A stretch of 64,000 nucleotides of DNA from NCBI RefSeq assembly GCF_001865575.2, contig NZ_CP017565.2, positions 124,001 through 188,000 of the forward strand, written 5' to 3'. The translations under genes were made by a program, and so were the position numbers. Shown here piece by piece: positions 44,348 to 63,052 of this stretch. Within the stretch, counting starts at the first letter, position 1; the number at the start of each line of letters is the position of its first letter. This DNA comes from Paraburkholderia sprentiae WSM5005. GTDB lineage: Bacteria; Pseudomonadota; Gammaproteobacteria; Burkholderiales; Burkholderiaceae. A model generated the notes under the pieces. The model saw only the letters and a list, made by a program, of their open reading frames with translations. It had not been told where the DNA came from and searched no databases.

Positions 44348-44360
44348 TATATCTCCCTGC

Positions 44361-44990
44361 CTAACGCTGGTAAGTTGGTCCACACGAAGGCGAAGCCGCG
44401 TTGCGAAAACGGGCGAGCAGACAGTCTTCATTCAACGACTGCCCGACGCACCTCAAACGATCGATTTCAACCAGTTCTTCTTCTAGGATGGCTATGACTG
44501 TCTCGGCTCCGGCAATGTGGCCCCATCGCCGGCAATTGGCGTCATGTGCCGATCCGAAAACCAGCTGTCCACCGGGCGCAAGCATCCGTGCTAAATTGCG
44601 GACAGCGGCGCGCACCTCGGCGCTGTCGTCGAGGTAATAGAGAACCTCCGCCACCACGATCAGATCGAACTGTTGCTCAGTCGAAAAATGCTGGACATCG
44701 GAGACGATCCAATTGATGTGTGGTGGGTCCATCATCCGTTCGCGTGTCCTGGCAATTGCGCGTGGCACGATATCGATCACGGTGAGCCGTTGGCAGTGCG
44801 GTGCCAATTTTTCCGTGAAGGTTCCGCCTGCGCATCCGACTTCGAGCGCATTTGTGACGGATCCCTGCGAAAGTGCCATCCGAAGCATTTGCCTGTGGCG
44901 CTCGTGCTCAAAGGGATTGCTGTCGAGCCGCCATGGATCGTCTGCGTCCAATTCCCGACGCAGCAATTCGAAGTTCGTTTGATGTGTCAA
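44361..44990 (-). CDS. nodS: Nodulation N-methyltransferase NodS
   Basis: 209-residue SAM-dependent methyltransferase that N-methylates the deacetylated non-reducing glucosamine of the Nod factor. Motif I is LEVGCAGGTFTEKLAP, motif post-I VIDIVPRAIAR, and the later strand is FDLIVVAEVLYYL. The N-terminal DDPWRLDSNPFEHERHRQML is diagnostic of NodS. The start is an unusual TTG at 44990: it is preceded by AGGCGGA, an in-frame stop lies just upstream, and no ATG fits. NodS acts after NodC and NodB and before NodA. It is intact, yet its substrate needs NodC, which is broken here. Confidence 0.93.
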   Translation of the reverse strand: MTHQTNFELLRRELDADDPWRLDSNPFEHERHRQMLRMALSQGSVTNALEVGCAGGTFTEKLAPHCQRLTVIDIVPRAIARTRERMMDPPHINWIVSDVQHFSTEQQFDLIVVAEVLYYLDDSAEVRAAVRNLARMLAPGGQLVFGSAHDANCRRWGHIAGAETVIAILEEELVEIDRLRCVGQSLNEDCLLARFRNAASPSCGPTYQR

Positions 44991-45182: not shown

Positions 45183-47093
45183 TTACCGTGACAATGCCCG
45201 TGAGGGATGTAGCCGAACCCGACGCTGTTCCCACAATCCGCGCAGCTCCTTGACGAGGGTTTCACGTCGAGTCTGCTCATGCGTAATCGTATCGAGAAGA
45301 TGTCCGAGCACGGCTTCGCCTTCGATCCGCATCAGCAGATCGAACAACTCATGTGAAATACGCACACTGTCACAGTTGGAGCCGCCGGTGCGAATTTCGC
45401 ACACCGTCTCCTGACGATCCCGCGCTGTGTGAGCGCGGACTCGATAGAGCGATGCATAGGGCGGCAGTGAAACCGCGAGCGCAGTCCAATGTTCCTGCGT
45501 TGCGGGCCGCTTTTTGACGAGGTACGGCCCGACCACAAGTCCATCCAGCTCTGTCGTCAGAAATGTGGCAATCGCGTCTGCAACCGAGTCTACGATCGGC
45601 TCAGCGTTGTTATTAAAGGAAGTATTGAGCAGAATTGGGATTCCTGTCCGCTTCTTGAACGCATTAATAACCTCCCAGTAGGCGGGATTGGTCTTGCGCG
45701 ATACTGTTTGCAGCCGCGCTGTACCGTCAATGTGCGTGATGGCGCCGAGCAAGGCACGCTTGGAGTCGCGCACGCGAACTACAAAATTCATAAAAGGGAA
45801 TTCGCGGGTACCCTCTGGGAGGTCAAAAAATTCGTGCGCATCGTCCTCGAGCACTGATGGCGCGAACGGTCGGTAACCCTCGCGCTTCTTGACCATGGCG
45901 TTGATCCGGTCCTTGTTTGCGGCCGGCCTGGGATCGGCAAGAATGCTGCGGTTGCCAAGCGCGCGTGGCCCGAACTCCGAACGACCCTGCACCCAGCCGA
46001 TCACGGCGCCATTGGCCATCCAGTCGGCTGCTCTGCCTGCCACGTCATCACTGCGTTCAACGTCGAGGTGTCCGGCCCACGCATTTAATTCTTGCCCCAC
46101 GACTAGATCGCTCCCAATATCGGGCCCCCAATAAACGTCCTGCAATCGCTCACGCGGCGGGGGCCGACCGAAATCGTTTGATACCATAAGGGCAGCGCCT
46201 AATGCGCAACCGGCGTCGTGCGCTGCGGGCTGCACGAAGATGTCTTCGAAAAGTCCCGAATACATCAGCTTACCGTTCATGGTGCAATTATGAGCTACTC
46301 CTCCGGCTATACACAGCCGCTTCATACCGGTGACCTCGCGATGATGGCAGAGAATGTGAAACACGATCCGCTCCAGCGCTTCCTGCAATGAAGCACCCAC
46401 ATCTCGATGCTGCTGTGTGAATGGCATTCCCTTTCGCCGGACCTGGATGCTGCGGAGCAACGTCGGACCGATGCGATCCAGATAGACGCGGTACTCACCG
46501 TTGGCGGAGAGTTGATAGAATTGCTCGAAGAGCCCGCGATAGGGAGCGGGATCCCCATAAGGGGCAAGCCCCATGACCTTGTATTCGTCGAACAAGCCGT
46601 AACCGAGATACCGGATTGTTTCGAGATAAAACAGCCCGATCAGGCTTTCCTCGAATCCAGACATCGCAAACGCGCTCACGGCATGCGCCAGATGGTGACT
46701 CACGAATGAGACTCGCGAAGGATCGACCTCGGTACCGAATTCCTGCGTTAGTAAGTTACGCAGAAACAGCTTGGCATCCACCGGAATGGAGATGTTCGGC
46801 TGGGACAGGAACAGGCGTTCGAGCATGACGTTGCAATAGGCCTCGGTAGCGTAAAACGCGATGCGGTCGATATCGCTGAGCTGAATCCCTGCGGATGCGA
46901 GGCAGTATTGAATTGAACTGCTCGGGAATTTGTTAGAGTGCTTGATCCGGTTGAGGCGCTCCTCTTCGACGGCCGCTATTACGCGTCCGTCCCGGACAAG
47001 CACCGCAGCGCCGTCATGCAGAAATGTGTTCGGCAGTTCGAGTGGATTTTCATGAACTTTGTCTAGCCCGCCGCTCACTCCTAAGCACAGCAT
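45183..47093 (-). CDS. nolO: Nodulation carbamoyltransferase NolO with internal deletion
   Basis: 636 residues from ATG 47093 (GGAG 6-9 bases upstream; a second ATG lies 15 bases earlier). NolO carbamoylates Nod factors, as does NodU. The N-terminus MLCLGVSGGLDKVHENPLEL and the body are very like rhizobial NolO. After SGFEESLI (codons near 46637) the sequence jumps to GLFYLETIRYLG. NolO and relatives have about 37 more residues here, including the DGxGD motif of the Kae1-like active site. The reading frame is kept, so a protein may be made, but it is probably inactive. The C-terminal domain (GRSEFGPRALGNRSI) is intact. First gene after nod box 1. Confidence 0.88.
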   Translation of the reverse strand: MLCLGVSGGLDKVHENPLELPNTFLHDGAAVLVRDGRVIAAVEEERLNRIKHSNKFPSSSIQYCLASAGIQLSDIDRIAFYATEAYCNVMLERLFLSQPNISIPVDAKLFLRNLLTQEFGTEVDPSRVSFVSHHLAHAVSAFAMSGFEESLIGLFYLETIRYLGYGLFDEYKVMGLAPYGDPAPYRGLFEQFYQLSANGEYRVYLDRIGPTLLRSIQVRRKGMPFTQQHRDVGASLQEALERIVFHILCHHREVTGMKRLCIAGGVAHNCTMNGKLMYSGLFEDIFVQPAAHDAGCALGAALMVSNDFGRPPPRERLQDVYWGPDIGSDLVVGQELNAWAGHLDVERSDDVAGRAADWMANGAVIGWVQGRSEFGPRALGNRSILADPRPAANKDRINAMVKKREGYRPFAPSVLEDDAHEFFDLPEGTREFPFMNFVVRVRDSKRALLGAITHIDGTARLQTVSRKTNPAYWEVINAFKKRTGIPILLNTSFNNNAEPIVDSVADAIATFLTTELDGLVVGPYLVKKRPATQEHWTALAVSLPPYASLYRVRAHTARDRQETVCEIRTGGSNCDSVRISHELFDLLMRIEGEAVLGHLLDTITHEQTRRETLVKELRGLWEQRRVRLHPSRALSR

Positions 47094-47364
47094 GTCTCTC
47101 TCCTTCATCGTGGTAGGAAGGCCCTATTGGCAAGACTCGAACCGCTACCACCTAAGTAAGGTAGGATATCGCTCGCCGCTGGGAACACCGGTCAGACGTA
47201 CCAGCCCCAAAGAATCTCGCCGCAATTCATGAAAATTCTGTACCGTTTGGTCCAGGGGTTGCGTTTTTTGGCGCTGTAGGATGGCGCGACCAGAAAGCTG
47301 AAGCGCTGGAACCCCGAGGAAATCCCCAATCTCTGCCAAACATGCGGCGGGTTCGCGAGGAGGC

Positions 47365-47441
47365 TCCCGATGCATGTGATTGATCGACAACTGATGCAAC
47401 GTCATTTCCTCGGCTTCGCTCAGTTCTACGGCACGCTTCAT
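47365..47441 (-). pseudogene. IS630-family transposase, 5' scrap (copy 1)
   Basis: About 25 codons reading MKRAVELSEAEEMTLHQLSI and then NHMHRE, the N-terminus of IS630-type transposases. After that the sequence diverges into unrelated DNA at the edge of the duplicated block. The same scrap, slightly longer, precedes nodD2 (55289-55531). Confidence 0.65.
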
Positions 47442-47524
47442 CCGCTACCCCCGGCACCACGAAGGCGCCAGCAGGTTGCGAAAATGAAATGGATCTACCA
47501 GGAACACTATCCTCCATGCCGTAC

Positions 47525-47571
47525 GATTCGTAAAATCGATTGTTTTGATGGAACCCATCTACATTATGGAT
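47525..47571 (-). promoter_or_regulatory. nod box 1 (NodD binding site, nolO-nodS-nodU operon)
   Basis: Reading leftward from 47571: ATCCATAATGTAGATG, then six bases, then ATCAAAACAATCGATTTTAC. It carries two perfect ATC-N9-GAT units (ATC-CATAATGTA-GAT and ATC-AAAACAATC-GAT) and the conserved AACAATCGATTTTAC end of rhizobial nod boxes. It is oriented toward nolO, whose start is about 430 bases away. nodD1 starts 12 bases from its other edge. Confidence 0.93.
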
Positions 47572-47582
47572 AATTTGGGATC

Positions 47583-48530
47583 ATGCGTTTCAAGGGCCTC
47601 GATCTGAATCTCCTCGTCGCGCTCGATGCTCTGATGACCGAGCGTAACCTCACCGCGGCGGCACGCAGCATCAACCTGAGCCAGCCGGCCATGAGCGCGG
47701 CCGTCGCCCGGCTACGCGCCTATTTTTGTGACGAACTATTTACGATGAGGGGCCGGGAATTTGTCCCAACACCGCGTGCAGAAGGGCTCGCTGCTCCAAT
47801 CCGCGAGGCTCTGGTGCACATCCAGCTCTCCGTTATTTCCCGGGACGTCTTCAACCCAGCCAAATCGGATCGCCGCTTCAGGATCATCCTTTCCGATTTC
47901 ATGGCAGTCGTATTTTTTCGAAAGATCGTGGAGCGTATTGCACGGGAAGCTCCCGCCGTCGGCTTCGAATTGCTGCCACTTGCCGATGATACCGATGAGG
48001 TTCTCCGGCGCGGCGAAGCCGATTTTCTTATCCTGCCGGAATTGCTCATGTCGAGCGCGCACCCTAAAGCGAAGCTGTTCGAGGAGACACTCGTGTGCGT
48101 AGGCTGCCGCACGAACAAGCAGCTATCAGGGCAGCTCACATTCGAGAGATACATGTCGATGGGGCACGTTGTGGTCAAGTTCGGGCGTACGCGGCAGCCC
48201 TCGATCGAGGAGTGGTTTTTGCTTGAGCACGGTCTCAAGAGACGGGACGAGGTCATCGTGCAGAGCTTTAGCATGATCCCGCCCATGCTATTGAACACTG
48301 ACCGTATAGGGACGATGCCCTTAAGGCTGGTCAAGCATTTCGAAAAAACGATGCCTCTGCGGATCGTCGACCTTCCGCTGCCACTTCCCGCATTCACCGA
48401 GGCCGTCCAATGGTCTGCCCTTCACAACAGTGATCCGGCAAGCAATTGGATGCGGGAGATAATATTGCAGGAGGCGTCACGCACGGTTCCTCGGCGTGAG
48501 ACCACGCGAAGACCAATTCACCCAAGTTAG
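47583..48530 (+). CDS. nodD1: Nodulation regulator NodD (copy 1)
   Basis: 315-residue LysR-type activator of nod operons, responding to plant flavonoids. The helix-turn-helix (residues 18-65) includes [20 protein letters not shown]. The characteristic NodD sequence continues with [18 protein letters not shown] and [10 protein letters not shown]. It lies on the strand opposite to nolO-nodS-nodU with nod box 1 in between. Residues 1-126 are identical to NodD2. All 14 differences are in residues 127-315, the inducer-binding domain. The ribosome site is weak (TTGGGA). It appears functional. Confidence 0.95.
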
Positions 48531-48681
48531 GAAATGGGATCTTTCAGCAAGCTTTTTGCGGCATGGATTTGTGGGGTTTCGAGGGTTTTGTGGCGACATA
48601 ACGGATATGGCCACACCAGGCCTGATTCGTCGCGGTGACGGCAAACGCCTGATCGAGCAGGTTCGGCGCGACCGGCAAGCT

Positions 48682-49088
48682 GTTGCCTTGATCTGCGTTT
48701 CTGGTTGCAACGCAACCCCTCTTTGCGACGCAGTCTCTTTATCGGATATACGCCGAATCATCGGTACCGCTGGGCTACCGGTTTCCACGGCTCGCTGAAA
48801 AACGTCCACGGCATGAAGTGGAAAAAATTCCTCTACATGCACGTGTGCGAGCGCGAGGCGTTGATTATCTGCAAGGCTTCAAACTGCGGCGATTGTGCCG
48901 ATTTCGGGATTGCTTCGGGCCAGAATGAAGATCTGGCTGTCTAGGTAGCCCTGCGTGCGCGCCCGCGCGAAGTGTGCGGTGAGTGTCGGCTTTGACTACT
49001 GAAACGATCGCCATGAACTGCAATGGAGCTCTGCCATCGCCATGCCGGGGACATAATGTCAATCTGTCAGTTGATCTTCCGGCGGCGG
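48682..49088. other. Intergenic, no gene supported
   Basis: About 400 bases between nodD1's duplicated block and the nif-associated gene. One plus-strand frame (48705-48944) shows no recognisable family. Confidence 0.4.
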
Positions 49089-49574
49089 TTATCGGGACCC
49101 GGACTGTGCGAGCAAGGCTTCCACGACGTCCAAGCCTATGCAATCGATCGGGTCCAGCCTGCGCAGCTTGGCGATCAGCTTCAGTGCAACGACGCGCTCA
49201 CCGCGCCGCACGCTGATGAACGCGAGCGCTTTCAGTGTGAAGAGCCAGAAGCGGCCCGGACCAGGAGTGGTGAAGTCGGTGTCGCCCGGCTGTACCGCAC
49301 ACCAGTCGCTGTCGAGCGACGCTTGCCGGGCGGCGACCGCCAAAGCCTTCGTCGCGACCTCCTGCGCCTCGCCAAGTTCACCCCGGTTCGCATGGAACTT
49401 ATACAGCAGATAGTAGGGTGGCAGGCAGCGCGGGTACGACAGGACCGCAGTCCACAACGCGGCGGCCACGTCGTCATTGCTGTCGCCGCGGGTTCTCTCG
49501 ATCAGCTGTAGCACGGGGGAGGGAACGCTGTCGCCGAAGAGATCGGTCGATTCGATACCAGTAATGAGATTCAT
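49089..49574 (-). CDS. Conserved nif/fix-associated protein of unknown function
   Basis: 161-residue helical protein, start ATG 49574 behind CGGAG. Central motif DTDFTTPGPGRFWLFTLKAL, then AFISVRRGE. The N-terminal half (LWTAVLSYPRCLPPYYLLYK, ANRGELGEAQEVATKAL) has TPR-like helix spacing. It lies at the end of the nifV-fixC-fixX run, so it was probably under the NifA-dependent promoter. A clear paralogue lies at 63726 to the window edge (DANFHAPGPACFWLFTLKAL). Function unknown; recurring placement next to nitrogen-fixation genes suggests a role in that process. Confidence 0.75.
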   Translation of the reverse strand: MNLITGIESTDLFGDSVPSPVLQLIERTRGDSNDDVAAALWTAVLSYPRCLPPYYLLYKFHANRGELGEAQEVATKALAVAARQASLDSDWCAVQPGDTDFTTPGPGRFWLFTLKALAFISVRRGERVVALKLIAKLRRLDPIDCIGLDVVEALLAQSGSR

Positions 49575-49652
49575 CAATTTGCTCCGATATGGTGAGGCGT
49601 CCGGGCACTTTTTGCGTCGCTCGGAAGCCGATGTGACGATGGATGTGTTTAT

Positions 49653-49950
49653 CTACCCGAACTTGAACTGGACGCGATGCCCGCCGCGCGGACACGCCCA
49701 TTCGAGGTTGTGATGGTCCGTGCACAGAATGCGGCAACTACCGCAGTCCAGCCAGCCGCCGGTAATCAGCGTGACCGAGCCGTTGCTGTCCTTCCGATAA
49801 CGAGGCCGGGCACACGAACGTGCAGCTTTTTCCGGCAAAGTCGTTGGTGCAGAGTTCAACGTTTTTGATGTGGACGTGCAGCCGCCCGACGTCCACGCGG
49901 TAGCGGTTCTGAAACAGCTTTTCCTCGATATTGACAGCGACCGTTTTCAT
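49653..49950 (-). pseudogene. fixX: FixX ferredoxin-like protein, frameshifted
   Basis: ATG 49950 opens MKTVAVNIEEKLFQNRYRVD and continues to GKSCTFVCPA. The frame then breaks near 49820 and resumes as DSNGSVTLITGGWLDCGSCR and ILCTDHHNLEW, ending FKFG at 49653. FixX is the 4Fe-4S partner of the FixABC flavoprotein complex that supplies electrons to nitrogenase. The cluster cysteines (CGSCRILC and the earlier CTFVC region) survive, but in two frames. It follows the fixC remnant directly. Confidence 0.88.
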
Positions 49951-50546
49951 CGGAAGGCTCTCCAGAAATTGTATGCGTCGCCGACCAGCCGGGCAGCGAG
50001 CGATTTTTGCGGAAACTGACCATGACATCATGCTTTTTGGTCTTCTTGCCGACGCCATCTACCGTAATCACGGTGCGGGCCGCTTGAACGACGAGATCAG
50101 GGTATGTTGTAAAGAACTGTAGATTGCGGTGCGGAATTTCTGGCATGTCGCGGTACTTGTTCAAATCCTTCGTCATGAAGCTCTTGTCGAGCGCGGCCTT
50201 ATACGCCGACAGCACGTTAGCGCGTTAGCGCGGTAGCCGCGGCAGCCGGCTGCTTTTGCGGCTATCGCCGTCTCGGCGGCGAGGCGTCCTGCGGTCATGG
50301 CGAGGTTGGAAACTTCGGGATGCGCGGCGTTGACGAACCCGCCGGACTCACCGACGATCATCCAGCCATTGCCGTACAGTTAGAGAACCATTTGTCGAAC
50401 TGCGCGCGGATGATCGTATAGCGGTTATACGGCGGTTTGTTGTAGTCGTCGCTGCGTGCGTGTGTTCCCACGAACGAAGTGTCGTCGAGTATCCACATGC
50501 GCTGCTCGATGATGTGGCGCTCGAGTGGCGCGCCCCATAACCACAC
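49951..50546 (-). pseudogene. fixC: FixC flavoprotein remnant, deleted and frameshifted
   Basis: Three FixC pieces in order. First, [20 protein letters not shown] and [15 protein letters not shown] (50358-50540), near the N-terminal third. A direct jump leads to [20 protein letters not shown] (50173-50370), near residue 300. In a new frame follow ALDKSFMTKDLNKYRDMPEI and TTYPDLVVQAARTVITVDG (to about 49970). The FAD-binding N-terminus, about 200 internal residues and the frame are lost. fixA and fixB, normally upstream, are absent; nifV abuts at 50547. Electron delivery through FixABCX cannot come from this locus. Confidence 0.87.
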
Positions 50547-51683
50547 TCACGACACGTTCACCCGCGTGCTGTGGGCTTCGGTCAGGAAGCGGCGCAGATC
50601 GCTTGCATTCGGCGCCTGCTTGTACTGCGTGACGAAAGAGCGGATGCGCGCAAGCAGGAGCGGGATGAGCCGCTCCGACACCCTCACGCCTAGAGCGTCG
50701 TAGGCCTCACGCACACTTTGAGATCCAGAATGTTTCCCGAGTATCGTCAACCGTTGCCGGCCGAGCTCTGCTGGATCGAATCCCTCGTAGGTCGTGGGGT
50801 GCTTCGCGAGGCCGTCGGTGTGAATGCCCGACTCGTGAGTAAAGATCCTCCTACCGATGATGCTCTTGCTGAAGGAAACTGCGCGGCCTGAGGCTTGTTC
50901 GACCAGTGATGAAATGTCGAGCAGCGCTCTGGTGTCGACGCCGGTGTCTCGTCGCAGCAGGTGCCGCGCGCCCATCACGACTTCTTCCAGCGCTGCATTG
51001 CCGGCACGCTCACCCAAACCGTTGACGGTGGTGCTCGCATGGGTCGCGCCGGCCCCGAGGGCGGCCAGTGTGTTGGCTGTGGCGAGCCCGAGGTCGTCGT
51101 GCGCATGGATTTCGATCTCCAGATCGACGGCGACGCGCAGCGCTGCAATGGCGTAGAAGGTCTTAAAGGGGTCCAAGATACCGACAGTGTCGGCAAAGCG
51201 CACGCGCTGGGCCCCGTGCTGCTGCGCGCATTGAGCCACTTCTATGAGAAATGAGCGATCCGCGCGCGAGGCGTCTTCCATGCCGAGGGAAATCTTGGGA
51301 TGGTTTTTCGCTGCCTCGTCGACGACGCGTGCGATCTGCGCCAATACCCAACTGCGCGACTGCCCCAGCTTGCGTTGCAAATGAATATCCGAAACGGGAA
51401 CCGAGAGATGAACGATATCGGCATCGCAGCGCAATGCCGCGGTGAGATCCTCGTCGGTGAGGCGCCCCCAAACCATCAGGCGGGCGTCGAGGTTCAGGTC
51501 GACGATTGCAGCGATGCACGCCATTTCGTCTTCGCCCATGGCGGGAATTCCGATTTCGAGTTCGGGCACGCCGGCTTGCGACAGTGCGGCGGCGATTGCG
51601 CATTTTTCCTCGGTGCGAAACGCGACGCCGGCGGCCTGCTCGCCGTCACGAAGTGTCGTGTCATTGATGATCGGATTGAGCAT
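50547..51683 (-). CDS. nifV: Homocitrate synthase NifV
   Basis: 378-residue DRE-TIM metallolyase that condenses 2-oxoglutarate and acetyl-CoA to homocitrate, the organic ligand of FeMo-cofactor. Start ATG 51683 ([17 protein letters not shown] with the D-x-x-L-R-D-G-x-Q active site). Later come [20 protein letters not shown] (the metal-binding HxH) and [15 protein letters not shown], plus [17 protein letters not shown] sequence ([12 protein letters not shown]). A perfect sigma-54 promoter lies 30 bases upstream and a NifA site about 100 bases beyond. The gene looks functional and strictly NifA-controlled, although the genes behind it have decayed. Confidence 0.95.
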
Positions 51684-51712
51684 GTCAGGTCTCTTGAGTT
51701 GTCGGCGAGGGA

Positions 51713-51730
51713 TTGCAAGCGTTGTGCCAA
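51713..51730 (-). promoter_or_regulatory. Sigma-54 (-24/-12) promoter of nifV
   Basis: Minus strand TTGGCACAACGCTTGCAA matches the consensus TGGCAC-N5-TTGCA exactly, with GG and GC 10 bases apart. The predicted transcription start is about 20 bases before the nifV ATG. Confidence 0.9.
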
Positions 51731-51823
51731 GCGAGCATCTACAGTCGGAGCACAATTTGCGGGATGTTGACCGGCACAATGTCGGATTATGGCGGTGCAT
51801 CGTCCGTTTGTTCGTGTCGCGAA

Positions 51824-51839
51824 TGTTACGTTCCGGACA
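51824..51839 (-). promoter_or_regulatory. NifA upstream activator sequence
   Basis: TGT-TACGTTCCGG-ACA, a perfect TGT-N10-ACA element, about 95 bases upstream of the -24 box, which is the usual distance for NifA looping. Confidence 0.85.
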
Positions 51840-51878
51840 ATGCGGCCGCGCTGGAGGTGGCTCGATCGGTTCCATCCG

Positions 51879-52262
51879 CTAGCGGACAGAATATCCAACT
51901 GATGTCGATGGCGTCCCGCAGCGTTTCCGGGATTCCGGTAGCTCAGCATCCCGATAAGCGTCGCCGACAAGCGGGTCTGGCAACGCCAGCTTCTCGTCGA
52001 TGCCCGCAAGACCCGCCGCGATCAGGGCCGCAAAAGCGAGATTCCGATTCAGATCCGCACCGCCAATGCGGCACTTCACGCGGACGGCGTCCGAGCCTTC
52101 GCCGTAAAGGCTGAAACCGACCGTCCGATTGCCTTGGCGCCATGCGACCTTGGTCGGCGCGAACGTACCGATCTGAAATCGCTTGTAGGAGTTGATGTCG
52201 GGCGCTAGAAAGAGGGTGATGTCCTTCGAATATTTCAGCAGGCCGCCAAGGTAATGGTGCAT
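51879..52262 (-). pseudogene. Glutamine synthetase fragment
   Basis: The open frame starts HHYLGGLLKYSKDITLFLAP and DINSYKRFQIGTFAPTKVAW, the ATP-site region of glutamine synthetases (NSYKR, PxxxxW). It proceeds through VKCRIGGADLNRNLAFAALI. Near 51940 the frame shifts (AELPESRKRC instead of the expected ELPEIPETLRDAID). The first 250 or so residues and the end are missing. It lies between truncated nodC and the nifV control region. The type resembles the GlnT/PuuA-like enzymes found in rhizobial symbiotic regions. Confidence 0.75.
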
Positions 52263-52445
52263 CAGATTAAGACGTTTATATGCGGACGCGGTACGAAGGC
52301 TTTGCCGCGGGGCAAGGTTTCACAAGGCAATCTTGTTCGTGCAAAGACTGGCGGTGGGCGAGTGCGGAGCTGCTTCCGGTAAGGCTCAGTAGCTCCAAGT
52401 TTTCACGGAGTCGACGGATGCACAAATCGTTAGTCGGTAAGCGAT

Positions 52446-53230
52446 TTTATAAATCATCTGCTAGATTCTCAACGAAAAGCACGATCGTCTCTAGATGCTC
52501 TGGGAGTGCAGTGGAAGTGAGCCCGCTGGAGTAAAACGGGTTTTCCGTCTCGTGCTGATCGAGCAGCAAAAGGAGCGCGGACCGGCGGTACATGGCACAT
52601 GGACCGCAGCAGCACGTAACGGCACCGAAGTGCCTGTGCCGCGCGCTCTTCGTTGCAAGCCAGCCAGTACTCCATATCGATCAACCGGGTCAACCAGGCG
52701 TCGCTCCGGTTGTTGGCGGTCAACCGACCCATGGCCGCGCCGATCGCTGGATTTTGCATTTTTTCAATGCAAGCTTCGTGACCACGTCTGAGCCGATTAT
52801 CGTGTCCGCGTCGACGTTAAGCACCAAATCTCCAAACGAGCGGCGTATCGCGGCGATGTATGCCTTGCGCTTTCCCATATTTGGGGGGAAGCGTAATGAA
52901 GTTGAATCTGTGGTCGCGCGTGTAGGCATCGTATATCGGCCTCACGGCGTCGAGATTCGCAGAAACATCATCAACCACATAGACCCGCAGTTTTCCGGCG
53001 CAGTCGTGGATTGCAATGGACTCTAGGCATGCTGAGAGCGTGCGCGGGTCCTCGTTCAAGCAGGGAACGATGACATCCACGCCCGGCAGAGTGTCGGAGT
53101 CGACGAGGCCGTCCGAGAGCGATGACACGTTTGTCGGCTGAGCATAAAGCGCGTGCGTGCTTTTATAGACAGTCGAGAGCAGCGCATAAAACGAGACAGC
53201 GACAGTGCTAGTTGCGGCAAGCACGTTCAT
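52446..53230 (-). pseudogene. nodC: NodC chitin-oligosaccharide synthase, frameshifted and truncated
   Basis: ATG 53230 overlaps the nodB end by 23 bases, the normal nodBC arrangement. Frame 1 gives the membrane helix and glycosyltransferase start (GVDVIVPCLNEDPRTLSACL, YVVDDVSANLDAV) to RFNFITLPP. A shift leads to KRKAYIAAIRRSFGDLVLNV-DADT, another to GAAMGRLTANNRSDAWLTRL, and a last to CCCGPCAMYRRSALLLLLDQ. After LLDQHET homology ends. The acceptor motifs GEDRH and QxxRW and the C-terminal membrane helices are absent. NodC makes the Nod-factor backbone, so this copy cannot. Confidence 0.92.
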
Positions 53231-53900
53231 AGGGTGTCTGGTTCGTCCGGTGAGGTTGAGGAAGCGATCGGATTGCAAACCCCCGGTCATGCAATGCCGG
53301 AATCATGAGGGAAAGCGCCGTGAGGGTCTGCTCGCGCCGACCAGCGTGAGCACATTGTCCCAACTCATCGGGAGGGCATCCGTCGTGCAAGAGCACAATT
53401 GCACCCGGCCGGACAGAGGCCAGCACTGCGCTGACAATCGCGTCTACGCCGGGACGAGACCAGTCTCGCGGGTCTACCGACCAATGGAGGGGCGCCAGAC
53501 CAGCGCTCGCTGACGTAGTGAGCACTGTTTCGGTCCACATGCCATACGGGGCACGCATATACCGCGGCGAAGCCTGGGGGCTCGCCATCCTGATGACCCT
53601 GCTTGCCGTTAGTATTTCCTGTTGTACTTCGGTGGGTTCGCATCTGGATAGGTCCGGATGAGTCATCGTATGGTTTGCGACCTCGTGCCCTTCTGCGATC
53701 ATCCGTCGGATCAGCTTCGGCTGGTCCGTTGCGTACGCGCCGATGACGCAGAAAGTTGCTGTCACCCGGTGTTCGGCCAGCACATCGAGGATGTCCGGTG
53801 TGCAAAGTGGATTAGGGCCGTCGTCAAACGTCAAATAAACGCTGCGACGTCCGGTGGTGTCAGCGCACTCGCTGCGCGCTTCGGATAAGCAGTGCCTCAC
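53208..53900 (-). CDS. nodB: Chitooligosaccharide deacetylase NodB
   Basis: 230-residue NodB, a carbohydrate-esterase family 4 enzyme that removes the acetyl group from the non-reducing end of the chitin oligomer. Motif 1 TFDDGPNP (catalytic Asp plus metal Asp), motif 2 [14 protein letters not shown] (metal His pair), motif 3 RAPYGMW and motif 4 [10 protein letters not shown] are present. Motif 5 is VLLHDG. The start is GTG at 53900, overlapping the nodA stop as GTGA, so it is coupled to nodA. It is complete and probably active. Confidence 0.95.
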
Positions 53901-54490
53901 AGCTCTGGCCCGTTCCGATCAATGATCGTTCCGGTCGGCCAATCGCTCATTGACCGTCCAATCGGTAAGACGACAATGAGTACGTCCTCGATGCGCGTGG
54001 GCGGCGTGTCGAGATGCACTTCTCGAAGGGTCGACCTCACGCGAACTCCAGACACAATAGTCGCCAGACCGGGTCGGCCGAGCAGCCTTGCAATATGTTG
54101 CCGCAACGCGTGTCGAACCGTGCCGAAGCCAAATGGAACGCCAAGTTCCTGCAACACGGGATACATCACGCGCATTAATTGAGGGATTCCGAGTCCCTCA
54201 AGATCCGGACGTACCGCGTACAATCCTAGTTCGGCCACTAGTAGATCGACTGCGCCAACCTTGATGAAACGACGCAGTGCGCCGATATGAGCCGCTACGC
54301 CGCGCGCGTCGTAGCCGATTGCACGGAACTCTGGCCTCGCACCAGCCCAACTGTGATTGCCTTCGAATGGTTTTGCATTAAACGCCCCGGTCGGTCCGTA
54401 GGACTTTCGGAAGAACTCGGACAGTTCGATGTGGTCGGCGAGTCGCAACTCATTTTCCCAAACCAGCCTCCACCGCACCTGAGAGCGCAT
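53897..54490 (-). CDS. nodA: Nod-factor N-acyltransferase NodA
   Basis: 197-residue NodA, which transfers a fatty acyl chain to the free amino group made by NodB. Start ATG 54490 gives the canonical [15 protein letters not shown]. Continuing features are [39 protein letters not shown] and the C-terminus IIDRNGPEL. Length is exactly typical. No nod box is directly upstream: the nearest (55616-55662) is about 1.1 kb away, with an IS630 scrap and regulator remnants between. Expression of nodAB may therefore be weakened. Confidence 0.95.
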
Positions 54491-54525
54491 GGAGAGAGGT
54501 CCTCTATCTGTGGACACGGCCAAAT

Positions 54526-55185
54526 TCACGACTGCCTCCTATGCGCCGTCCGGCCTTTGAGGGCGGACCTGACGGACGCGAAGGACTTGCTGAGAAAGCG
54601 GTTCGATTTCAAGAAATCATCTGCACTCTGGAACAGTTCTGGGATGAAGCCCGAAGAAAAGAGTATTTCCGTCAACGCTTCACGGACCGTTCGAACCTCA
54701 TCCACGATGGAGATTACATCGAGTGCGCGTGCCTTTCGTACCAGATCTACCAAAGACTTCCCCCGCATCTTCCGCACGATCTGACCGCGATTGACACGAG
54801 ATCCATTTGGCCGGGTCGCTGAAGCATTTGGCACCTGCAATCGGCTGCTCCCGATTCGACGCGAAGCCAAGGCGAAGTCGAGGGTTGCCTCAACTGTACG
54901 AAGGTAACCGGCCGATATAGGAAGGGTTTGGAAAACTTTGCGAAGGTTTGCCGGTAGTAAGTGCCTACGCGACCTGCCAGACGCTTGTCGCGTCGTGTCG
55001 GCGCGATCCAGCTTGCCCATGCGGCCGAAGGCCGTGGCCGCATTGGACATGTGCCTCGGTGGATGCTCGACGTACACCTGAGGATTTTTCTCGGAGTCAA
55101 GGCAAAGATCGACAACCGTCTTGATATGCCTAAATTCTATTTCTCCGGCCCGACGTTTTGCTAGAGGATTCATGAGAGCGTCCAC
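54526..55185 (-). pseudogene. Mosaic of FixJ/NodW-type response-regulator remnants
   Basis: One long minus-strand frame. Its middle resembles the end of a LuxR-type helix-turn-helix (NRGQIVRKMRGKSLVDLVRK). It is followed by the beginning of a receiver domain (IVDEVRTVREALTEILFSSG, PELFQSADDFLKSNR). The order (end of one regulator, then start of another) suggests two adjacent two-component regulators reduced by deletions. The phosphorylation Asp region is missing. The N-terminal third (NPLAKRRAGEIEFRHIKTVV) is not recognised. It lies between nod box 2 and nodA. Confidence 0.5.
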
Positions 55186-55288
55186 GAGAAATTGACTTGA
55201 AATTTGGTGCCGTATCCGCCGAGAAAGTTCAGCGAGTTCGGCATCGGCGTTTCCTTCGTGCAGGTGATGAAGCGTCGCCAGTGGTGCT

Positions 55289-55531
55289 TCATGTTCCCAC
55301 CGTTATGGCCGCCCGTCGGGCCATACACGCCGATGTTGCGCCATGCGTGAGCCAGTCACGGACCGACTGCCCGCTCACGCGGAGTTGCTCGGCGGTGAGC
55401 TTGCAATTGGTCCTGTGTCCGAGCAGCGACAGGGCTGCCGCTCGCGTGCGCGTGTCCCGATGCATGTGCTTAATCGACAACTGCTGCAACGTCATTTCCT
55501 CGGCTTCGCTCAGTTCTACGACACACTTCAT
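55289..55531 (-). pseudogene. IS630-family transposase, 5' fragment (copy 2)
   Basis: N-terminal helix-turn-helix part: ELSEAEEMTLQQLSIKHMHR and TRTRAAALSLLGHR, then EQLRVSGQSVRDWLTHG. Beyond this the frame shifts (WRNIGVYGPTGGHNGG in another frame) and the rest of the transposase is absent. It lies immediately downstream of nod box 2 and may have inserted between the box and nodA. Confidence 0.7.
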
Positions 55532-55615
55532 CCACTACCCGGGCACCACGAAGGCGCCAGCAGGTTTTGCGAAATTGAAATGGATCTACCAGGAACACTA
55601 TCCTCCATGCCGTAC

Positions 55616-55662
55616 AATTCGTAAAATCGATTGTTTTGATGGAACACATCTACATTATGGAT
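55616..55662 (-). promoter_or_regulatory. nod box 2 (NodD binding site toward nodABC)
   Basis: From 55662 leftward, both ATC-N9-GAT units are present exactly as in nod box 1. Within the box only one base in the central linker and the outermost end differ. It is oriented toward nodA. Confidence 0.93.
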
Positions 55663-55673
55663 AACTTGGGATC

Positions 55674-56621
55674 ATGCGTTTCAAGGGCCTCGATCTGAAT
55701 CTCCTCGTCGCGCTCGATGCTCTGATGACCGAGCGTAATCTCACCGCGGCGGCACGCAGCATCAACCTGAGCCAGCCGGCCATGAGCGCGGCCGTCGCCC
55801 GGCTACGCGCCTATTTTTGCGATGAACTATTTACGATGAGGGGCCGGGAATTTGTCCCAACACCGCGTGCAGAAGGGCTCGCTGCTCCAATCCGCGAGGC
55901 TCTGGTGCACATCCAGCTCTCCGTTATTTCCCGGGACGTCTTCAACCCAGCCAAATCGGATCGCCGCTTCAGGATCATCCTTTCCGATTTCATGGCAGTC
56001 GTATTTTTTCGAAAGATCGTGGAGCGTATTGCACGGGAAGCTCCCGCCGTCAGCTTCGAATTGCTGCCACTTGCCGATGACCCCGACGAGGTTATTCGGC
56101 GCGGCGAAGCCGATTTTCTTATCTTGCCGGAAATGTTCATGTCGAGCGCGCACCCTAAAGCGAAGCTGTTCGAGGAGACACTCGTGTGCGTAGGCTGCCG
56201 CACGAACAAGCAGCTATCAGGGCAGCTTACATTCGAGAGATACATGTCGATGGGGCACGTGGTGGTCAGGTTCGGACGTACGCGGCGGCCCTCCATCGAG
56301 GAATGGTATTTGCTTGAGCACGGTCTCAAGAGACGGGACGAGGTCATCGTGCCGAGCTTTAGCATGATCGCGCCTATGCTATTAAACACTGACCGTATAG
56401 GGACGATGCCCCTAAGGCTGGTCAAGCATTTCGAAAAAACGACGCCTCTGCGGATCGTCGAACTTCCGTTGCCGCTTCCCGCATTCACCGAGGCCGTCCA
56501 ATGGTCTGCCCTTCACAACAGTGATCCGGCAAGCAATTGGATGCGGGAGATAATATTGCAGGAGGCGTCACGCATGGTTCCTCCGCGTGAGACCACGCGA
56601 AGACCAATCCACCCAAGTTAG
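55674..56621 (+). CDS. nodD2: Nodulation regulator NodD (copy 2)
   Basis: 315-residue NodD, divergent from the nodABC operon with nod box 2 beginning 12 bases upstream. The DNA-binding half is identical in protein to NodD1, with three silent changes in 378 bases. The effector half differs at 14 positions, among them residues 127 (Ser for Gly) and the pair LPEMFMSS for LPELLMSS, plus [10 protein letters not shown] for [10 protein letters not shown]. There is no disruption. Two NodD proteins with the same DNA reader but altered ligand pocket suggest response to different flavonoids. Confidence 0.95.
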
Positions 56622-57021
56622 GAAATGGGATCTTTCAGCAAGGTTTTTGCGGCATGGATTTTGTTGGGTTTCGAGGGTTTTGTGGCGACATAACGGATAT
56701 CGCCACACCAAGCCTGATTCGGCGCAGTGACGGCAAACGCCTGATCGAGCAGGTTCGGCGCGACCGGCAAGCCGTGTGTCAATCTGGTCGTTGCCTTGAA
56801 TTGCGCTCCGAAGTGCCTTGCAAGCGTTCGGCCCCATAACTCTCACGGGAGCGCTGATGTGCGGCAGTATCTCCACCTCAAGCCGGGCCCCTGCTGCGCG
56901 CGGTGACGCCGCCATCGCTCTATCCACGAATCAAAGACATAGTGCGGGTAGATAGTCGATCCTGCAAAATTCAGTTTGCGGTGGCGAGCCAACCAAGGGT
57001 GCGCCTGTCGGCGAACAGGAA

Positions 57022-57325
57022 TCAGCCCATCGAAAGCGGTTGTGCCGAGCAAGCGCTCGGCTGCAGCGTGACATTGGCGAGCCAATGCAGCACCGCGAGG
57101 ATAAAAAATGCAGGCCCCAGGCCCAGACGGACGATGGCGCGCAGCAACCAGCGCAGGTTGTAACCGGCAGCACACAGTACCGCGTGTAGCGCACCGCCGG
57201 TTTGCCCTTTGAGCCAGCAACGCCGCATGCCGTGGTCGTCCTTCACATGGCCGATGACCGGTTCGATCGCGTGCCGTCGCTTGAGCCAACGTCGCTGCGT
57301 GCTGGTCAGGGTCTTCCGTTTTCCG
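57022..57325 (-). pseudogene. IS5-family transposase, C-terminal fragment
   Basis: Minus-strand reading TLTSTQRRWLKRRHAIEPVI, GHVKDDHGMRRCWLKGQTGG and ALHAVLCAAGYNLRWLLRAI, the end of an IS5-type transposase including the catalytic Glu in AIEPVIGH. The N-terminal 75% is missing. It belongs to a different subgroup from the IS5 copy at 41.6-42.6 kb. Confidence 0.75.
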
Positions 57326-57562
57326 CGATTAATCAGTTATACTGATGACACTTAGGCATTGACGCCCCGAACCCCGAGATCGATCGGCACGGCCTTCGGT
57401 TGCGGCGTACCCGGGCAGATCCTCCAACAGAATGGTGTCACGGATCGCCGTATAGGAGCCATTTGATGATCGGCGCATAGGCGCCACCTGCGCTGTGTAG
57501 CAGAACGCGGTTCGAACTTTCCCCAACTGGGTACGCTTCGCTCTTTTCTGAGTGGAGCGCCC

Positions 57563-57970
57563 ATGGCCAACCGGAGATTCGAATTGTTTGAGTACCGCCA
57601 AGTCCTTGTCCGCATGCGGCAGGGCGATTCCGACCGCGACATCGCGCGCGTCGGGTTGATGGGCCCGCCGTGAGGCGGTGTCGCCCTGGAGCTCGGCTGG
57701 CTCGATCCAGCGCAGCCGCTGCCGGAAGACACCGTGATCGCCGGACGCTTCGGCCGCACACCACACCTGCCCAGCATCTGCGTGTCGACGCTCGAGCCCT
57801 TTCGCGAGCGGATTGCTCGCTGGTTCGAGTCCGACGTCCAGGGCACGACGATCCACAGTGTCCTCAAGCGCAACCACGGCTACTCCGGCAGCTATTCCGC
57901 GGTGCGCCTAGACAGCGTCAAGCAGCACGGCCGGTCGGCCAAAACAATTGTCGCTGCCCGACTCATTTAG
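57563..57970 (+). pseudogene. istA: IS21-family IstA, 5' fragment with stop
   Basis: ATG 57563 reads MANRRFELFEYRQVLVRMRQ, then GDSDRDIARVGLMG, followed by TGA at about 57671. The frame continues with GWLDPAQPLPEDTV, STLEPFRERIARWFESDVQG and IHSVLKRNHGYSGSYSAVR. This is the IS1326-like IstA N-terminus with an internal deletion and nonsense codon. The catalytic core is gone. Its istB tail is found at 58181. Confidence 0.72.
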
Positions 57971-57979
57971 AACCTGCGA

Positions 57980-58060
57980 GAAGAGCTCCAGCAGAGCATC
58001 ACCGCGCCCTTCTCGGAGCTCTTGCAATCGCTGTGGGGAAACAAAGTATGTTGCCAACAT
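57980..58060 (-). pseudogene. Integrase-like N-terminal scrap
   Basis: ATG 58060, preceded by GGAGGACGTC, gives MLATYFVSPQRLQELREGRG-DALLELFSQVL. This resembles the SAM-like N-terminal domain start of tyrosine recombinases. Homology ends after about 27 codons. Short and tentative. Confidence 0.4.
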
Positions 58061-58180
58061 GACGTCCTCCTGTAGTGGCGATCGGCCACGAAAGACATTA
58101 TCATTATGCGGGGAGACAGGGGTTAGATCTGTCGCGTTCACGGCCCCATGGGGCTGACACTTCGCGTAAAAATAGACCCT

Positions 58181-58330
58181 GCATTTAACCTTGACGTCAG
58201 CGAGTGGGGCGAGGCATTCGCCGGCAACCGCATCCTCCGTGCCGCTACGCTCGACCGTCTACGCCACGGTGCCCACCGCATCGTGCTTGACGGCGACAGC
58301 TTCCGGTCACCCAAACCGATGCCCGAACAC
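58181..58330 (+). pseudogene. istB: IS21-family IstB, C-terminal fragment
   Basis: About 50 codons reading NLDVSEWGEAFAGNRILRAA-TLDRLRHGA and VLDGDSFRSPKPM, the C-terminus of IstB of the IS1326-like branch. With the istA fragment at 57563 it marks one internally deleted IS21 copy. Confidence 0.7.
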
Positions 58331-58499
58331 GATAAAACTCGCGGGGGACACTTGTCGCCCCGACGGATCGGTCTGCTTTGCTTGATCTGGATCATGGTTT
58401 GCCTCGATTCAGTTGTGCGACAGTTAGCCGCGCAATTTCGAGATGACAAAGACGGGTTTGTGAAACAGACTTGGACATCGATTGAGTAAGGAGAATCAC

Positions 58500-59288
58500 A
58501 TGGCAATTGCGCACAATCGCCTTACCGCGCCACAGACCGACACGTTTCGGCCTTCGACAACGGCTTCGCGGACGAAGCCCATGGGTTCGAGTGGCACGTC
58601 ATGCAAGACCTGCACGATGCGTCCGTTTTGCGCGGTGAACCCCGATGAGCTCGCCTGCGACCGGCAAATGGACGACCTCGTTCTCGGCTATCGCCACGTG
58701 AGAAAAGGCGAAGCATTGCACCGCGCGGGCGATTCATTTTGCAACGTCTATGCGGTTCGCACGGGATCGTTCAAGAAGCTCTCGCTGCTTCCGGACGGGC
58801 GGGACCAGGTCACTGGGTTTTATGTTGCCGGCGATCCGATGGGCTTGGACGGCATCGCTACTGGCCATTATGCAAGCGACGCCATCGCCCTTGAAGACAG
58901 CAGCGTATGCGTGATGCCGTTCCATCTGCTCGAGTGGCTGAGCCGGGAAGTCAAAGCGGTGCAGAGTCACGTCTACCGAATGCTCAGCGCGGAACTCGTG
59001 CGGCAACGCGGTGTCAGTACGCTGCTCGGCACGATGGCGGCCGACGAGCGGGTTGCGTCGTTTCTTCTGGATCTCTCGCGGCGTTGGCGGGCACGCGCCT
59101 ATTCGCCGACCGAATTCATCTTGCGAATGACGCGCGAGGAGGCCGGCAGCTTTCTCGGGTTGAAGCTGGAGACGGTCAGCCGCATATTGTCGAGGTTCCA
59201 GAGGCAGAGGCTCATCACCGTGAACGGTAGAGAAATCCGCATCCTCGACTTCGCCGGATTGAGCAAGGTCGCTAGTCTTTCGGCCTGA
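58500..59288 (+). CDS. fnr: FNR-type oxygen-responsive regulator
   Basis: 262-residue CRP/FNR-family activator. ATG 58500 has AAGGAG 7 bases upstream. The N-terminal cluster ligands are SCKTCTMRPFC (C-x2-C-x5-C), with a fourth Cys in DSSVCVMPF after the cyclic-nucleotide-like barrel. This is the 4Fe-4S FNR arrangement. The recognition helix reads LGLKLETVSRILSRF with the E-x-x-S-R FNR specificity residues. It is therefore a direct oxygen sensor, expected to bind TTGAT-N4-ATCAA sites. Its position near nifA suggests microaerobic control of symbiotic genes. Intact. Confidence 0.92.
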   Translation: MAIAHNRLTAPQTDTFRPSTTASRTKPMGSSGTSCKTCTMRPFCAVNPDELACDRQMDDLVLGYRHVRKGEALHRAGDSFCNVYAVRTGSFKKLSLLPDGRDQVTGFYVAGDPMGLDGIATGHYASDAIALEDSSVCVMPFHLLEWLSREVKAVQSHVYRMLSAELVRQRGVSTLLGTMAADERVASFLLDLSRRWRARAYSPTEFILRMTREEAGSFLGLKLETVSRILSRFQRQRLITVNGREIRILDFAGLSKVASLSA

Positions 59289-59486
59289 GGTAAGAAAGCG
59301 GCTTCCAACGCGGACAGGTCCGGTTGTTTCATGAATCGCATCGCTTGTCCAATCCGTTCGTGACTCCCCCAGAATCCCCCGAATGGAAATCGTCCGCGTG
59401 TTTTCGCACCATGATTCGGTCAAACCAGTGCGCAGAGCCGGGGGCGGCGATGCGATTTAGTCGCCTGATCGCTCCACGCGTTCCTG

Positions 59487-59867
59487 ATGTCTTACTTGAC
59501 CCAAATCAAGGCGCAGGCAGACGGTGTTCGATACGCTTGCGTCCATTTAAAGACGAGAATGATGGTTCGCCGGGAAGCCATGCCGAATCACACGTTGGAT
59601 GTCGAAATCGGACGACTTGTATCGTGGCCGATACTGGAGTTCATGCTGCAGACGACCGTAAGGCACGCTGCCATGCAGATGGCGGCGCGCCGGTGCCTCC
59701 TTGAAAGCCGGATGCGTCATATCGGCGTGCTGGGCGAGCAGCATACGCTGATCGGGCCGCTTGGCTTGTCCGGGCCCGACCGCTGGCCGGCAGGCCCGTT
59801 CCTGGTCCAACCAGAGGCGTATCAGCTGTCCTCGGCCCGACAGGGTGTTCACCATTTCGAACCATAG
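59487..59867 (+). CDS. Hypothetical protein
   Basis: 126-residue open frame that I do not recognise. It includes VRREAMPNHTLDVEIGRLVS and QTTVRHAAMQMAARRCLLES, possibly helical, and ends QGVHHFEP. No signal peptide and no clear ribosome site before ATG 59487. It lies between fnr and a group II intron relic and could be a gene fragment. Confidence 0.35.
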   Translation: MSYLTQIKAQADGVRYACVHLKTRMMVRREAMPNHTLDVEIGRLVSWPILEFMLQTTVRHAAMQMAARRCLLESRMRHIGVLGEQHTLIGPLGLSGPDRWPAGPFLVQPEAYQLSSARQGVHHFEP

Positions 59868-59995
59868 CGGTGTTCAAAGGAGTGTTTCCATGCCGGGTCA
59901 AAGGGATTGGCTTCGCCACGGATTTACGTATGTTGCCGGATTGGGACGTCGGATGCTTTGCGTAGCCTCGTCCCGGGTTCCCTTCTGCCGTTAGT

Positions 59996-60638
59996 TCACC
60001 AGTATCGCGGACAATACCCAGTGCCGCGTTCCTTCACGATGGAAGTATCGCGCTCTGATCCATCGTGCGCCCTTGCACGGATGCCGCCCGCAGCACCACT
60101 TTCACAACGCCTGCCAGATGGCAGCGTCGACTGCGCTATATATTGTTTCGAGACCAAGCATCGATGACAGTTCGACCAGCCATCGATGATCGGGCTGAGC
60201 AGGCCGATGAGAGTGACCTGTTCGGCCGATGCATTGTCGTTGATGACTGAGCGCACTGTCACTAGAAACGTTTGAACATTCTGTTTTGATGGCTTGATGA
60301 GTAGCTTGCCGTTCGGATATTTTCGAATGTTATGCCCGAGAAATCGAACCCTTGCAAGACGTGCGTGATCCTGGTCTTTCCGGAGAGAGCGTCAGTCCGC
60401 GCTCCTGCAGAAAGACCCCGACCAGTGGCTTGACCTCGTCTTCCAGCAACTCTTTCGAGTAACCGGTGATCAGAAAGTCATCGGCATAGCGAACCAGACT
60501 GAGGTAGCAATTAATGAGGGACGACGCCTGTAATCGGCTGCACCTGGAGTAGACAAATTGCAGTTTGAGCGACATCAATTGGACTCGCGTTCTTGGCGGA
60601 ATCCGCGCGGCGAGATGGCAAGAGGAGAAAATAGGCAA
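59996..60638 (-). pseudogene. ltrA: Group II intron reverse transcriptase/maturase remnant
   Basis: Minus-strand reading SLVRYADDFLITGYSKELLE, with the catalytic YADD box, then GVFLQERGLTLSPE. A frameshift gives KTRITHVLQGFDFSGI, another IRxYPNGKLLIKPSKQNVQT-like sequence. Then come VTVRSVINDNASAEQVTLIG and SPIIDGWSNCHRCLVSK, the maturase (domain X) region. The finger domain upstream and the C-terminal endonuclease are missing. It is a degraded intron ORF next to nifA. Confidence 0.8.
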
Positions 60639-60668
60639 ATCAAGGCACTATAGTTTCACCGCCCTGCC

Positions 60669-62564: not shown

Positions 62565-63052
62565 AAGGACTGCCTGACTTGCGGCGTGTCGGGGCCGCGA
62601 CATCGCGACTGAGGCGAATGGCTCTGACAAGTCAAATCTGGATTTGACGTGGACGTTGGCACGATCACGATCGTGGATGGCACGACAGGTTAGAGCGTGG
62701 TCGGCAAAGCCGGGAATGTCCGAGCACCGTCGAGTGCGCGAAAGCGACAAGGAACCGACCAGCGAAACCCGTCAGGCTCAGCGGCACAGCCACCTTGAAA
62801 GTCCGAATGTACGGTTGCAATCTACCTACCCATCATCATCGATTGAAAAGTTGGCAAACTGGCGGCGTCCATGTACTGACATTCGTTGAGTCGAAGTTGG
62901 GATCGACGGCGGCTGGCCGCAATGGCCAACATTAAGACATTCAGTAAAAGCGATTAACAACGCAAGTTTGTTCCTCACGCATCACTACCCGTCTACCTGG
63001 CCCGGCTTTATTCCGCCAAGGTATCGTGTGAGAATTCGCCCGGAATTCCTCA
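62565..63052. other. Intergenic, no gene seen
   Basis: About 490 bases between convergent nifA and the IclR pseudogene. A perfect ACGATCACGATCGT-like inverted repeat lies near 62661-62674. No coding frame or known site is supported. Confidence 0.4.

Follow-up and report, generated by a model that had tools for sequence, protein, structure and literature searches.

Dispersed gene copies that are kept alike by recombination have been described for nifH in Rhizobium and tuf in Salmonella, with tracts of a few hundred nucleotides, the usual length in bacterial concerted evolution (excerpts of PMC8223754; the other papers cited below are likewise represented by excerpts), and crossover and gene conversion at nifH were studied experimentally on the symbiotic plasmid of R. 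etli (PMC10932983). NodD of alpha- and beta-rhizobia is a LysR-type regulator of 315 amino acids with a helix-turn-helix (HTH) and a substrate-binding domain, encoded divergently from a nod-box operon. Several nodD genes may occur in one symbiotic genome, e.g., five in R. tropici CIAT 899, whose NodD1 and NodD2 differ experimentally in their roles (PMC5424341). Here, a pair of nodD genes, nodD1 and nodD2, is analyzed in a stretch of 64,000 nucleotides (the window) of Paraburkholderia sprentiae WSM5005, positions 124001-188000 of one of the five contigs (C5) of its 7.84 Mb genome. The best explanation of their partial identity is ectopic recombination or gene conversion among nodD copies and between two symbiosis regions of this genome, to which the sequence comparisons lead us to assign a probability of about 0.8.

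As with nifH and tuf, dispersed copies seem to be kept alike by recombination; unlike in those systems, the gene is nodD, two replicons and two regions of apparently different ancestry are involved, one identical stretch measures 16.4 kb, and the copies are equalized only in part. The products resemble other NodD proteins in family, length, domains and divergent orientation, but the genome has four copies, of which two are identical, a third is off by five of the first 300 residues, and nodD1 is off by 14 of 315. As in CIAT 899, several nodD genes share one symbiotic genome, whereas here the copies are mosaics of shared alleles. Judged by titles and opening abstracts, none of the papers listed in the literature search (subscription journals were outside the scope) describes this case, which is new within these limits; the process as such is already known. 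PMC4062628 and PMC3708930 gave no matches to terms on nodD, copies and duplication; in the parts covered, PMC6116057 mentions a nodD phylogeny in the supplement and PMC12912947 names gene conversion in a reference title.

Two nodD genes in the window

The genes nodD1 (copy p1, the nodSU-side position, 47583..48530) and nodD2 (copy p2, adjoining nodA and nodB, 55674..56621) are both on the plus strand and, at the coordinates given in the original prediction, encode 315 amino acids each. Both products can be classed as NodD-type LysR regulators by domains, similarity and nod-box neighborhood. In both copies, Pfam domains HTH_1 (PF00126, residues 8-67) and LysR_substrate (PF03466, residues 96-298) score above the gathering thresholds; identity is 91-95% to other Paraburkholderia copies and, for those of the best 80 matches that are alpha-rhizobial loci, approximately 73-83%; nodA and nodB are neighbors of nodD2, and a NodU-like gene, nodS and nodU are neighbors of nodD1. 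Counting against the assignment, no NodD model was matched in NCBIfam, where the 18 matches were to other LysR families and below cut-off.

The two genes differ at 32 of 948 nucleotides. Three differences, all silent (nt 66, 147, and 150), fall within nt 1-378 (47583..47960 in nodD1 and 55674..56051 in nodD2), so that residues 1-126 are identical, as had been claimed. The remaining 29 (nt 379-948; 47961..48530 in nodD1) cause 14 amino acid changes, at residues 127, 137, 141, 154, 155, 199, 205, 212, 227, 233, 257, 263, 301, and 304; this number also agrees with the prediction, and the minimum of nine base changes given there for the first 100 bases past the boundary is exactly the number found at nt 379-478. 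The repeated unit, approximately 1.3 kb long, exceeds the gene and comprises promoter, nodD and a short 3' stretch, the two units (47365..48683 and 55455..56775, plus strand) being 95.9% identical in BLAST; three pieces of the repeat align without gaps. Upstream of the gene, 11 of 209 positions differ; the counts are 3 of 378 for nt 1-378, 12 of 222 for nt 379-600, 14 of 300 for nt 601-900, and 5 of 102 for the downstream part. Thus, the low-difference stretch starts near the start codon and stops at nt 378.

The identical part had been described as the DNA-binding half, which does not hold. The solved chains 9iib and 9x6w ("LysR family transcriptional regulator") align to NodD from residue 91, and the Pfam domain begins at residue 96; the inducer-binding domain thus begins at about residues 91-96, and residues 1-126 include its first 30-36 residues or so. 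The border at 126/127 is therefore placed by these alignments inside the inducer-binding domain and coincides with no domain border. No paper on either structure was found among the matches listed in the literature search.

A 24-bp nod-box core is identical before both genes, at 47526..47549, between nodD1 and the divergent NodU-like gene (0 mismatches), and at 55617..55640, between nodD2 and the divergent nodA side; the search pattern was partly derived from the window itself, with 0 matches expected in shuffles. The claim of equal nod boxes was thus right as to sequence, but both lie on the minus strand and are aimed at the divergent operons.

The original prediction named two NodD copies; both are present, but they are two of four. 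In a protein search of the genome all four had at least 95% identity, the next match having 41%. The other two are located on contig C2 (2.64 Mb). One of them (1502541-1503488) is equal to nodD2 at 948 of 948 nucleotides; the other, at the nodD1 position of C2, has nodD1-like flanks around a mostly nodD2-like gene, differing from nodD2 at 1/378, 1/222 and then 11/299 positions, with a shortened and altered end. All four copies are at most four bases apart in the first 378 nucleotides.

In the C2 nodD1-position copy (C2:1510400-1511457) the last codons are lost and a short new tail follows residue 300; in the alignment, 22 of 65 alpha-rhizobial NodD proteins are likewise gapped at position 301.

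Silent sites and amino acid changes

Matches at E <= 1e-120 were found in 24 of 144 genomes of the genus, nine of which (this one included) have a copy of at least 91% identity; among the relatives are P. tuberum STM678, P. podalyriae, P. rhynchosiae, P. kirstenboschensis, BL9I2N2 (treated as one genome with G100, because of the same positions) and BL25I1N1. In total, 17 nodD sequences were compared. The silent-site, run, break and shuffle analyses used 13 of them (78 pairs); the other four were the C2 counterpart of nodD2, which is identical to it, the second copy each of BL9I2N2 and of the genome G099, and the BL25I1N1 fragment L047.

Pooled over the 78 pairs, the silent difference reaches 0.087 for the first part of the gene and 0.084 for the second; hence, the first part of nodD is not slow by itself. 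Between nodD1 and nodD2 it is 0.031 (3/97.7 sites) and 0.111 (15/134.7), respectively (Fisher p = 0.026). Of the 68 pairs whose second parts differ by more than 0.05 at silent sites, theirs has the second lowest first-to-second ratio, 0.28, and the lowest, 0.18, also comes from this genome (nodD2 and the copy at the nodD1 position of C2). Protein constraint alone was rejected as an explanation of the first part, since silent sites are depleted there as well while silent rates are equal clade-wide.

The same depletion bears on the other reading offered originally, namely selection that fixed the operator-binding part while the inducer-binding parts diverged toward different flavonoids. That all 14 amino acid differences lie past residue 126, that the pooled (uncorrected) dN/dS of the clade is 0.13 in the first part and 0.52 in the second, and that multiple nodD genes with distinct roles are known, as in R. 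tropici CIAT 899, would agree with it. However, the loss of silent changes is beyond the reach of protein constraint, and the border lies some 30-36 residues inside the inducer-binding domain. Moreover, dN/dS between nodD1 and nodD2 is 0 in the first part and 0.29 (0.27 with Jukes-Cantor correction) in the second, below the clade median of 0.50 over the 68 pairs; diversifying selection on the inducer domain as the main cause is therefore unsupported. At nine of the 14 residues both states are found in copies of other strains (15 of the 17 sequences, all but the nodD2 copy of C2 and one of the two G099 copies, the second). Finally, two relatives, G099 and BL9I2N2, hold two identical NodD proteins each, and in G101 and P. 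tuberum the paired proteins differ within the first part, at residues 60, 73, and 87. Taken with these points, selection for flavonoid specificity is an unlikely cause of the pattern, and recombination among nodD copies is preferred.

At the other five residues, nodD1 has states (T137, L155, D263, T301, and R304) that no other of the Paraburkholderia copies shows, and nodD2 shares I141 and M154 with P. podalyriae. Sequences of alpha-rhizobia (65 of 68 loci, L059 and L094 not being entered and L091 being dropped because of a stop) and nine mimosoid-type beta-rhizobial loci were used for further comparison. Each of the 28 residue states is present in at least one of the 65 aligned alpha-rhizobial proteins; some are rare (1/65 each), namely I141, P227, and A233 in nodD2 and L155 and T301 in nodD1, of which L155 and P227 are found in all nine mimosoid-type proteins. 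Residue H169 of DntR, whose change to T gives a partly autoinducing DntR (PMC4730206), faces, in a phmmer alignment read by hand, E168 of NodD, which is not among the differing residues.

Recombination within nodD

The 13 clade sequences have 143 polymorphic sites, 47 of them in nt 1-378. The probability of at most three of 29 differences falling in the first part is P = 0.0023, the boundary being taken as given although it was seen in these data. The longest identical run between nodD1 and nodD2, nt 156-378, spans 32 polymorphic sites and ranks first of the 78 pairs, with a permutation p of 0.006-0.007 for this pair by itself. A pair of trees describes nt 1-900 better than a single tree: the log-likelihood gain is 63.4 for a break at nt 379 and 93.5 for one at nt 600, while 40 column shuffles gave maxima of 47.6 and 50.0, respectively, and no more than 51.2 over six breaks.

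Tree topologies were compared by the approximately unbiased (AU) test for 16 of the 17 sequences (without L047). For the first part, joining nodD1 with the nodD2-position copy of G101 was rejected (p = 0.033), whereas for the second part it was not (p = 0.47). For the second part, a nodD1-position clade including the C2 copy was rejected (p = 0.0013), and forcing the four own copies together cost 15.5 log units (p = 0.055).

Several results weigh against this explanation. Corrected over the 78 pairs, the run at nt 156-378 has a global p of 0.29, and MaxChi, which itself chose the break 378/379, gave p = 0.074. Clade-wide, the best of the 16 breaks tried lies close to nt 600 rather than to nt 378. 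The tree of the first part unites the four copies of this genome with support of 70/81, which is not strong, and for this part a topology that places nodD1 among the copies at the nodD1 position in G101, P. tuberum and BL25I1N1 was not rejected (AU p = 0.099). At nt 66, 147, and 150 it is nodD1 alone that differs from the other three copies. Low silent ratios (0.39-0.52) also occur in P. kirstenboschensis pairs, the next among other genomes. Near-invariant sites make up 55% of the first part and 28% of the second in the 65 alpha-rhizobial proteins, so that stronger protein constraint contributes to the missing amino acid changes in the first part. Further, the 16.4-kb identity described below depends on one assembly.

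Altogether, these comparisons argue strongly for recombination within nodD in general. The check for conversion suggested with the original prediction gave a corrected run test and a MaxChi value above the significance level; hence, the first-part tract as a separate event, i.e., the specific event behind the border at nt 378, is moderately supported.

nodD pairs in related strains

Copies more alike than their history would predict are seen in two relatives. The nodD genes of G099 lie 22 kb from each other and agree in all 948 nucleotides and the following 102; in BL9I2N2, the pair has one difference in 948 nucleotides, a silent one. The two genomes differ from each other at 5/300 positions in nt 601-900 and 4/102 downstream, the copies within each genome agreeing at these sites. 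Upstream, the copies within one genome still differ, at 18/209 (G099) and 10/210 (BL9I2N2) positions. The homogenized stretch, read by eye, starts within approximately 50 bp of the start codon in G099, BL9I2N2 and the window. Comparison with other beta-rhizobial nodD genes, which had been suggested as a check, thus gave homogenized pairs in two relatives, but also the G101 and P. tuberum pairs differing in the first part.

The G099 and BL9I2N2 loci (L102/L124 and L025/L026) combine identical or nearly identical coding parts with upstream 210-bp parts that are 5-9% divergent.

G101 has paired nodD units at the same two positions, and P. tuberum, P. podalyriae and P. rhynchosiae have at least parts of both; the pair therefore probably predates this genome. 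This is relevant to a further scenario, in which the nodD unit was duplicated recently and the second part of one copy was then replaced by a divergent allele of another strain. Blocks in the second part of nodD2 that match other strains (nt 606-795 in the nodD1-position copy of G101, with an uncorrected permutation p of 0.018 for that pair, and I141/M154 in P. podalyriae) would suit such a replacement; the paired units at the same positions in relatives, however, and 11 upstream differences in 209, too many for a recent duplication, make it very improbable compared with conversion between long-standing copies.

The P. rhynchosiae nodD1-position copy (L029:2533-2951) matches the first 420 nt only and looks broken.

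At six diagnostic sites of the first part (nt 144, 178, 217, 260, 267, and 306), the copies at the nodD1 position in G101, P. tuberum and BL25I1N1 share a type that sets them apart from the remaining copies of G101 and P. tuberum. The type of these remaining copies is present at all six sites in nodD1, nodD2, P. podalyriae and the copy at the nodD1 position of C2. The same holds for nodD1 upstream (-117, -97, -93, -44, -39, and -19) and in the tail (904, 914, and 939); the C2 nodD1-position copy has no such tail, so that the tail sites apply to nodD1. Judging from the diagnostic and flanking sites, the unit at the nodD1 position of this genome appears to derive as a whole from nodD2, and the even smaller difference in nt 1-378 suggests that another tract followed later. 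As the flanks of the second P. tuberum copy (L024) are partly nodD1-position-like, its position is uncertain.

In nt 379-900, the nearest sequence outside this genome is, crosswise to position, the nodD2-position copy of G101 for nodD1 and the nodD1-position copy of G101 for nodD2, with 11 differences in either case. The nodD copies are mosaics of alleles that occur in sister species. The gene conversion alternative of the original prediction is thus supported by the silent ratios, by agreement at six of six diagnostic sites, and by the pairs in G099 and BL9I2N2, the individual tract being supported moderately.

Two symbiosis regions and a long identical stretch

The larger fact is a pair of partly merged symbiosis regions, of approximately 67 kb each, on C5 and C2. 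They are collinear, with gaps, in opposite orientation (C5:166483-233273 and C2:1516662-1449688), and collinear blocks of at least 400 bp have from 93% to 99.6% identity. In a tree of six sequences (approximately 4.15 kb), the nodS-nodU part of C5 is sister to that of P. podalyriae with support of 100/100, and a tree with C5 and C2 forced together was rejected (AU p = 1.3e-6); therefore, C5 and C2 are not recent duplicates of each other there. For the nodSU part, a simple in-situ duplication that copied the entire C5 region to C2 was rejected on this basis. The tree would be compatible with either separate acquisition of both regions or a later import of podalyriae-like nodSU into C5 alone.

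Within these regions, 16,397 bp are equal base for base in this assembly (window 53925-70321 and C2:1488841-1505237), the part 53925..64000 being in the window and the end at 70321 outside it. The stretch starts within nodA and contains nodD2, nifA and a second nifV, as well as fixC-like and electron-transfer flavoprotein-like genes (below cut-offs). Its flanks show 35 differences in 744 positions before and 32 in 914 after (3.5-4.7% divergence). Identity by tracts between divergent flanks is thus seen both here and between nodD1 and nodD2. Between C5:64001-288000 and C2:1390001-1570000 there is only one other exact run of at least 500 bp in the same orientation, 761 bp long. With the usual tract length of a few hundred nucleotides as the norm, nt 1-378 of nodD fits and 16.4 kb does not; the latter is more like an exchange of a long block than a usual conversion tract, and we read it, from the assembly alone, as a single long, recent recombination event between replicons.

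The 761-bp run (window 43353-44113) is located within nodU in surroundings of 2.5% divergence, and may be another tract.

A mis-resolved repeat would also yield a long exact identity between replicons, and collapsed or copied repeats could be partly behind the near identity, above all in the 16.4-kb stretch. Against such an artefact, the flanks of the stretch, and nodD1 and nodD2 on the same contig, are several percent apart and should be separable by an assembler, and the assemblies of two other genomes, G099 and BL9I2N2, show homogenization of the same kind. We consider an assembly error hardly probable, and exchange between the regions better suited to the data.

Three nifV copies have been reported in P. 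sprentiae WSM5005 (PMC8073898). A stretch at C5:231369-232840, homologous to that with the nodC-like fragment of the window (79% DNA identity), may hold another nodBC copy.

Proposed course of events

The process would be homologous recombination that keeps the flanks in place (gene conversion, presumably RecA-dependent as in R. etli), both between nodD units and between the regions. In a first step, the unit at the nodD1 position would have turned nodD2-like; later, a short tract would have equalized the first part again, the middle and end of nodD1 retaining older allelic blocks and nodD1-private mutations. Both products are predicted to be working NodD activators at the same nod boxes, and any difference in inducer response would be a by-product.

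A more far-reaching possibility, which we put forward tentatively and hold to be somewhat less probable than its opposite, is that two symbiosis regions of different ancestry are merging in one cell by recombination, at least 16 kb in one step, with nodD coding sequences repeatedly equalized to near the start codon (in this genome, G099 and BL9I2N2) and promoters staying position-specific. If so, the copies would be retained to control a single sensor separately or to set its dosage, and not to provide two sensors. The silent sites and the relatives indicate copy-and-paste rather than tuning to different plant signals; a conserved and a variable half of paralogs need not mean functional tuning. 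The genome would be a natural example of recombination merging two symbiosis regions whose ancestry apparently differs, which bears on the reshuffling of rhizobial host-signal sensors between strains.

Neighboring genes

On the nodD1 side, all on the minus strand, are a NodU-like carbamoyltransferase gene divergent from nodD1 (45183..47108, below the NodU cut-off), nodS (44361..44990, NF041650) and nodU (42626..44431, NF041651), the latter two above cut-off. Between the two nodD copies, also on the minus strand, are nifV (homocitrate synthase, 50547..51875, TIGR02660), nodB (53208..53900, TIGR04243) and nodA (53897..54529, TIGR04245), all above cut-off, and a nodC-like fragment of 157 amino acids (52817..53290), which covers 119 of 395 model positions and is below cut-off. 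Gene nifA of the identical stretch (60669..62564, TIGR01817, above cut-off) is on the plus strand. Between the nodD2 nod box and nodA there is an open reading frame of 219 amino acids (window 54526-55185), which may be a gene remnant; close to its end it contains a FixJ-like fragment, weak and below cut-off.

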